A stretch of DNA of 64,000 bases from Lamellibrachia columna. Taxonomy: Eukaryota; Annelida; Polychaeta; Sabellida; Siboglinidae. A program made the position numbers and the translations under genes. The stretch spans positions 31,922,536 to 31,986,535 of the forward strand of contig OY759273.1 in assembly GCA_963662155.1 (NCBI GenBank). Reading direction: 5' to 3'. Below are positions 45,601 through 48,600 of the stretch, in pieces. Under the pieces are notes generated by a model, which saw nothing but the letters and a program-made list of their open reading frames with translations, searched no databases and was not told where the DNA came from. Position 1 is the stretch's first letter; every line of letters begins with the position of its first letter.

Positions 45601-48600
45601 CAGTATATCAATGCAATGCTGGCAGTTATAAGTACATAAAACGACACCTTGCCATTGTATGACACAACTTCGGACAATTGAAGAAAATATGCATAATGTT
45701 GCCAACAATTGTGGGTAATTGTTGGTATAGCGTTGCTGACAGTTGTATGTAATAACTACAAACTAATTGGATCATTTGTAGTATGTGTAATAGTGGGCTG
45801 AATAAAAAAAAATAGACTGCCATAGATCCTAGATGAATCTCTGAAAGTTTGACATGCAAGATATAAAGCATCTAGGAGGAGTAGCATAACATACATACAT
45901 ACATACAGACAGACAGACAGACAGACAGGCAGACACAGACAGACAGACAGACACAGACAGGCAGGCAGGCAGGCAGGCAGGCAGGCAGGCAGGCAGGCAG
46001 GCAGGCAGGCAGGCAGGCAGGCAGGCAGGCAGGCAGGCAGGCAGGCAGGCAGGCAGGCAGGCAGACAGACAGACAGACAGAGGAGCTGTATGCTAATTGT
46101 CCGACACGTATGATTTCAGCATTCAGCTCCAAGGCTGCCGTGAGCAACCACGCCAACAGCTCGGGCTTTGACTCTGCCTCAGGTACGCATTAGTCCACCA
46201 GCCTCTCTAGGAAACTGTAGACTTATCACGGGAACCAAATATACTCAGAAAGGTTGTGAATTTGTCATTACCATATATATCTTAATGCCCATAAATTGTT
46301 GTGTTTTGCCCAAACCTCAGTGAAGTTAGTTTTTAAATGCTTTTTTATTTAGCGCAGTATTCAACCCTTTCTACTTTACACTTCACCCCTTGGTAGACCT
46401 GTTATTTCCAAGACAAACTTGATTTCTCTGGGAAGCATTCAGCCATGCTGCAATTACTGCGAAAAGACTATTTATTCATATGTATCTGCCACTGTCTATA
46501 TCCATGTGCTAATTTATGCAGCTGAGTGAACTTGTTTACAGACAGCCACTGGCAGGACACAGTGTCACCAAACAGTAGTAACTTCACGCTAGGGATGCGA
46601 CAGACGATCATGGACATCAACCATGACTTGGAGCAACACACGCCACAACCACCACCGCCACCACCATTAAGTAAGGCTCTAATGCAAACACCACCACCAC
46701 CACCACCTCCACCACAACCACCACCACCATTAAGTAAGGCTCTAATGCAAACGCCACCAACACCACCACCACCACCACCACCTCCACCACAACCACCACC
46801 GCCACCACCATTAAGTAAGGCTCTAATGCAAACGCCACCAACACCACCACCACCACCGCCACCATTAAGTAAGGTTATAATGCAAATGGCACAACCACCA
46901 CCATCACCACATGCCTCTTTTAAGTAATAAATCCCGTTTTTCAATCTTTGATGGCCGTTTTCTCAAAAATGTGTTTTCTGCATTTGAAAAAAGAATATCT
47001 CTGAGTAATTTTGCTATCCAAATAAGGTTTTAAATGTTGCATTCAGCATACTCTACTCTGCACAATGACCAAAGAGATTTTAAAAATCATCAACAGTTTG
47101 AAAGACAAACCCATATTTGTTGCCAAAAACAAAGGTTTTTTTGCACTTTTTGTTTGCACTGAACATGGATTTGCAAGAATTATAATCATATATGTGTTCA
47201 ATAAAGAATGGCAGTGTTTCTAAATTTGCCAATATTTGCTCAAAAAAGCATACATTTTGTTTGTTATCATGAAAATGGGGGTCTGGCTGAAAAAAGTTCA
47301 ATATATTTTTACTCAGTAAGACCATTAAGTAAGGCTCTAATGCAAATGCTACAACCATCACCACCACCATTAAGTAAGGCTCTAATGCACACGCCACAAC
47401 CACCACCATTAAGTAAAGCTCTAATGCAAACACTACAACCACCACCATTAAGTAAGGCTCTAATGCAAACACTACAACCACCACCATTAAGTAAGGCTCT
47501 AATGCAAACACTACAACCACCACCATTAAGTAAGGCTCTAATGCAAACACTACAACCACCACCATTAAGTAAGGCTCTAATGCAAACACTACAACCACCA
47601 CCATTAAGTAAGGCTCTAATGCAAACACTACAACCACCACCATTAAGTAAGGCTCTAATGCAAACACTACAACCACCACCACCACCACCACCATTAACAC
47701 AAGCTCTAGTGTATATCCCACAACCACCACCACAACCACCACCATTAAGTAAGGTTCTGGTGCACACACCATTACCACCACAATAAAAAAAATTTGCTCA
47801 TCTCACTTCCAAAAAAAGTAGACAAACTATTCAATTATTTTTAACTGAATCATGTAAATTCAGCAAAAATAGAAAATGTAGTCCTGCTCTCTATACTATT
47901 GCATGAATGATGTATGAAGGTTTATTCAACAACAACAACAACATAATACAGGTGCATAGTATAGTGTGCTGCTGCTGAAGTCATATGACTTATAAGGTGC
48001 TATGCCCTTCTCAAACTAAGTCAGTACAATATAAGTAACACAAATAAAGTACAAAATAACATTCATAATTCACTTATAAACTTATTACAGTGGTGTTTGT
48101 GCTATTAATAAATTAACTTAATTTAACATCACTTTCAGTTAAAAGTTTATAAATATGCAGTAAGTAACGACAACTTGAATGTTTTTTAAGTTGTGTTAAA
48201 CTTGGCAGCCGAGTTATTTCATTTGTTAAACTGCTCCACGTTTTTATACCTTTGACAGTGAGTGACAATAGTCTGAGGGTGGCACCTTATAAATCAGTTT
48301 GCTTTGTCTGGTACCATACATCACACTTTCACCTGATCTAAGGATCATAGTCAACTGTTTTAATTTTTTTTAAATTATACGCTCTTATTAATCTGACTGC
48401 CCATATATCTGAATCTGTCCAGTAAGGTTGACTGCCACTGTTGTGTAGGTGTTTTGTAAAATTTCCGACAGACTAACTTCAAGGCACTGAGGTGTACCAT
48501 GGGTAATGTGATTGACATCAAACCTATCATAAGGTGGTGACTCACTGTTCTTGTTATTGCAATGTTCGCACTCACTATATAGAGTCATTGAGTTGCTGTT

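Follow-up and report, generated by a model that had tools for sequence, protein, structure and literature searches.

The adaptors STAP-1 and STAP-2 carry a PH domain followed by an SH2 domain and a proline-rich tail, and mammalian STAP-2 has been described to bind CAP through its proline-rich C-terminal region (PMC10925025, available text). Competition of several donors for one acceptor is documented in an adaptor gene, at intron 4 of DOK7, and the available text of the same article reports that SRSF1 favours intron-proximal 5' splice sites and hnRNP A1 intron-distal ones (PMC5585400). In-frame tandem units of differing copy number are a feature of coding VNTRs such as the PTS repeats of MUC2 (PMC3549977), and splice signals are copied within a gene when introns are gained by internal tandem duplication (PMC4974935), as far as the available text of these two sources extends. 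A search of the literature for repeats carrying a splice donor and for competing duplicated sites, covering the texts available to us, found none describing a tandem series of copied donors, which is not proof that the phenomenon is unpublished.

Here we analyse a STAP-like adaptor gene of the deep-sea tubeworm Lamellibrachia columna in which the end of a coding exon recurs in tandem together with its donor. Coordinates refer to the window, the whole stretch of 64,000 nucleotides from contig OY759273.1 that was analysed.

The STAP-like gene and its relatives

The gene model comprises 17 coding exons and encodes a PH+SH2 adaptor of the STAP kind. Pfam searches identified the PH domain (PF00169, 26.3 bits against a cut-off of 25.1, with a query lacking exon 1) and, downstream of it, the SH2 domain (PF00017, 27.8 bits against a cut-off of 21, residues 276-348). 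Among solved structures the closest were the STAP1 PH, STAP1 SH2 and STAP2 SH2 domains, the top three of 66 PDB matches (E 1e-6 to 2e-5), these being pairwise matches and not positions in a tree. A genome search with 442 residues returned eight matches (E up to 0.001), and since all eight fall at this one locus the STAP-like gene appears to be single-copy.

A first protein search, in which 7,998 candidates were scored, yielded seven proteins. P0001 showed 72% identity across 99% of the query, and LSAT2_023273 of Lamellibrachia satsuma (P0002) showed 96% identity across 63% of the query; the further relatives were Dimorphilus and Capitella proteins, two others and a weak scallop match. A second search returned no new relative, and a third added only P0008, which is L. 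satsuma LSAT2_023274, the next locus tag after LSAT2_023273, on a contig of equal length. P0001 is a 729-residue protein encoded on a 2,528-base contig, and is hence without introns and transcript-like. The exons outlined with these proteins are the following:

24556..46182, + strand: exons 1-10 (PH domain, linker, SH2 domain, start of the tail), from tblastn with P0001 for exons 2-17 and with P0002 for exon 1 and following; PH and SH2 by Pfam
24556-24639, 28409-28480, 36305-36442, 37323-37379 and 37612-38121, + strand: exons 1-5
42242-42288, 42942-43085, 44116-44185, 45247-45364 and 46120-46182, + strand: exons 6-10
46542..46670, + strand: exon 11 (A) to its first donor, the 11th coding exon, phase 1-1, matched by P0001 and P0002
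48668..48811, + strand: exon 12 (B), paralogue of exon 11, phase 1-1, contained in P0001 and P0008
50599-50751, 51482-51529, 52293-52388, 52933-53238 and 54053-54168, + strand: exons 13-17, ending in the stop TAG; P0001 matches all five and P0008 has the same tail

From exon 10 to exon 16 every exon length is divisible by three, and each exon begins and ends in phase 1. Tandem duplication is clear for exons 11 and 12, which are 78% identical across 88 nt. In P0001 the two follow one another, which rules out mutually exclusive use as their sole mode, and the join between them reads PPPPPL-M in the same phase, as expected from TTA A|TG.

Three further observations concern the gene as a whole. 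P0001 contains, at about residues 493-522, an extra segment with a YEND motif between its exon 12 and exon 13 sequence; tblastn did not find this segment in the window, where a single YEN match was attributable to chance. Exon 16 holds a second coding minisatellite (53040-53178, 4.6 copies of a 30-base unit), a stretch that is shorter, as judged by eye, in P0001 and P0008. Apparent fragments of a non-LTR retrotransposon reverse transcriptase, also recognized by eye, occur as open frames within an intron at 34224-35313.

Array 1 and the end of exon 11

The exon 11 end lies within a minisatellite, for which the following features were defined:

46643..46924, + strand: array 1 (exon end, four donors, polyproline and LSKALMQT modules), with the frame open to TAA at 46925-46927
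46671..46868, + strand: three modules in 66 codons that use of the last donor would add to exon 11, likely coding in view of the open frame and of orthologous coding sequence in the L. satsuma models P0002 and P0008
46869..46870, + strand: last array 1 donor and putative main 5' splice site, favoured by the join of the last module to exon 12 in P0008 and by the greater change of core codons downstream

An earlier note on this DNA had reported that the exon 11 end and its donor recur at four sites. This was confirmed, with four identical donors (ACCATTAA|GTAAGG) at 46671, 46734, 46815 and 46869 (first base of GT), spaced by 63, 81 and 54 bases, in a region that TRF reports as overlapping rows across 46643-46910. 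The tandem units lie in one open frame, and their translation bears out the earlier description of modules made of polyproline plus LSKALMQT. The proposal that any of the donors would keep the phase also held: all four are frame-neutral into exon 12 and the remaining tail, with the frame open to the last codon. Judged by sequence and frame alone, array 1 hence offers at least two usable donors for one acceptor, four of four qualifying. The acceptors had been given as 48667 and 50598, which are the last intron bases, the next exons beginning at 48668 and 50599. Each unit consists of a 24-base core with CCA triplets around it, and because differences in unit length are differences in CCA triplets, the spacing in multiples of three and the conserved phase do not constitute independent evidence. 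The unit is specific to this locus, a 26-base core (CCATTAAGTAAGGCTCTAATGCAAAC) having nine exact matches in the 880-Mb assembly, all nine of them at the STAP-like gene.

The orthologous array is read as coding in the L. satsuma gene models. P0002 extends into it with 12 cores, one of them LRKALMQT, and P0008 contains four more, one of them LSEALMQT, followed by a last module joined to exon 12 sequence. The total of 16 core copies in the two models against four donors in L. columna is a between-species comparison only. The join in P0008 reads L-M, as A|TG predicts for a splice from the last array donor, and the last exonic module contains the same ten-residue sequence in both species. In P0008, exon 12 is joined to exon 13 by way of the first exon 12 donor. 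The earlier suggestion of a switchable or length-variable tail is thus supported as regards length, copy number differing between species; as for the putative switch by donor choice, the only module-bearing models leave from the last donor, and P0001, the only transcript-like relative, is without an LSKALMQT module. The L. satsuma models are evidence for an open frame in the orthologous array and for a possible junction rather than for RNA, and may be pure prediction; no L. satsuma genome paper appeared among the articles listed by a literature search, and the available text of PMC8277472 does not describe the annotation method.

Upstream of the last donor, the core codons of L. columna present no amino-acid changes in 24 and two synonymous changes, and 2 of 128 residues differ among the L. 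satsuma cores. The unit after donor 4 presents three amino-acid changes in eight, and the units of a second array further downstream (array 2) present 10 in 88. The contrast before versus after the last donor is significant (Fisher P 0.0001) in a comparison that mixes codons for L. columna with residues for L. satsuma, and it vanishes (about 2/72) when the count omits the unit following donor 4 along with the outermost two of array 2. The outer units of minisatellites decay anyway. Pairing with U1 is equal for the four donors (-5.0 kcal/mol) and weaker than that of 13 of the gene's other 15 donors; of 4,077 GTs scanned across the window, 10% pair with U1 at least as well as the donors of array 1.

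Array 1 is a real and locus-specific minisatellite, probably coding, that took in copies of its own splice donor and whose copy number differs strongly between the two Lamellibrachia species. We regard as evenly poised the fuller proposition that it is an in-frame coding minisatellite, variable between species, which makes exon 11 longer and has its likely main exon end at 46869. In its favour are the frame, which stays open across array 1 and also when any of its donors is joined to the remaining gene, the coding cores of P0002 and P0008 with the junction of the latter, the ten residues common to the last exonic module of both species, the conservation of core codons before the last donor and the CAP-binding proline-rich region of mammalian STAP-2 (PMC10925025, available text). 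It is weakened by the absence of the module from P0001, by the reliance of the codon contrast on outer units, by the low pairing energy of the donor and by the possibility that the L. satsuma models are products of prediction, which favours long open frames. The site at 46869 is most likely the main one, favoured with real doubt, and we infer that the modules are present in L. columna mRNA.

Under this coding-minisatellite interpretation, tandem duplication would have acted on a segment in which TTAA and the intron start (GTAAGGCTCTAATGCAAAC) stand between CCA triplets, and slippage or unequal exchange would probably have taken place in these flanking CCA runs. The former donor would then be read as the codons TTA AGT AAG (LSK) in every copy except the last, and use of the intron-proximal donor at 46869 as main exon end would insert three modules, 66 residues in all, after the SH2 domain and ahead of the remaining tail. 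In an SH3-type interaction the polyproline could serve for binding or as a spacer. Given that STAP-2 binds CAP by its proline-rich region, the number of modules may, by analogy, tune an SH3-type contact or the length of a spacer.

Neighbouring arrays and alternative readings

Two further arrays of donor-like copies were identified downstream:

47317..47781, + strand: array 2, a 39-base unit with ten donor copies plus one decayed unit, a possible in-frame cassette exon
48786..49225, + strand: array at the exon 12 donor, with nine donor-like copies at spacings of 45-48, one of the nine productive

An acceptor-like tttttactcag, judged by eye, directly precedes 47317. Taken as an exon of its own from that position, array 2 would keep the frame with all four donors tested and would consist of modules only. 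The direct use of array 2 donors from exon 11 was rejected as unproductive, the three tested among the ten copies all leading to a premature stop. At the exon 12 donor array an open protein results from the first copy alone, the remaining eight of nine leading to premature stops. Since this array is mostly unproductive, a donor-copying repeat does not on its own indicate a splice switch. Alignment gave no support for a common origin of the unit in arrays 1 and 2 with that of the exon 12 array (score 27 against a shuffle mean of 20, P 0.12).

Across the window, 27 minisatellites make up 9% of the sequence, as counted from TRF rows of period 9 or more merged by hand, with rows of shorter period dropped. 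Junctions inside arrays do not form a special class, with 2 of 32 observed against 2.9 expected (4.5 expected within the gene span). Arrays lying at most 60 bases from a junction are enriched, both in the window (9/27 against 3.1 expected, P 0.0017) and within the gene span (9/17 against 4.4 expected, P 0.012). The minisatellites at 44552-45235 and 52070-52288 end 11 and 4 bases upstream of the exon 9 and exon 15 acceptors, respectively.

These data bear on several alternatives to the coding-minisatellite interpretation. Several of the four donors might be used within one individual, generating adaptor isoforms with anywhere from 0 to 3 modules. The identity of the donors, their equal U1 energy and their frame neutrality in four of four cases are consistent with such a ladder, and competing 5' sites can be shifted by SRSF1 and hnRNP A1 (PMC5585400, available text); however, triplet variation alone accounts for the conserved phase and the exon 12 array presents donor copies without productive use, one of nine being open, so we consider concurrent use rather unlikely. 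A broader version is doubtful. In it each repeat would bring a working donor, and copy number would fix how many frame-preserving isoforms exist, with 0-3 modules for L. columna and as many as about 16 for L. satsuma; array 2 would supply an extra in-frame cassette exon made solely of modules.

It is similarly improbable that 46671 is the sole donor used and that the junction falls by accident within an ordinary intronic minisatellite, array 1. P0001, which joins exon 11 directly to exon 12 after PPPPPL with no modules, speaks for this, as does the use of the first exon 12 donor in P0008 despite eight further copies, and the two junctions of 32 found inside arrays are at chance level. Yet in the L. 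satsuma models a single frame takes in 16 or more modules as coding sequence, and P0001 is known from transcript-like sequence alone, in which a genomic array is not visible. Intronic polyadenylation making exon 11 also a 3'-terminal exon, and hence a short adaptor, is very improbable: the frame runs open to the TAA at 46925-46927 and AATAAA occurs at 46926-46931 and 47200-47205, but AATAAA is common in A+T-rich introns and none of the relatives found has such an end.

Comparison with known systems

Array 1 is a natural tandem series of identical, frame-neutral 5' splice sites whose copy number differs in two congeneric species, and it allows a direct test, in a natural gene, of how one donor is chosen from several equal ones. 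Interpreted as a coding minisatellite, it illustrates a route by which a splice site becomes coding sequence and lengthens the tail of a signalling protein. Relative to intron gain by internal tandem duplication, with which it shares the copying of splice signals within a gene, the tubeworm locus has had its donor copied repeatedly, with no new intron evident. Unlike STAP-1 and STAP-2, whose domain order and proline-rich tail it shares, the tubeworm gene has two paralogous tail exons and a tandem module, features absent, by eye, from the Capitella and Dimorphilus relatives found. With coding VNTRs of the MUC2 kind it has in common in-frame tandem units of differing copy number. With DOK7 intron 4 it shares several potentially competing donors for one acceptor in an adaptor gene, but the tubeworm donors, known here from sequence and frame, are four identical copies at triplet spacing.
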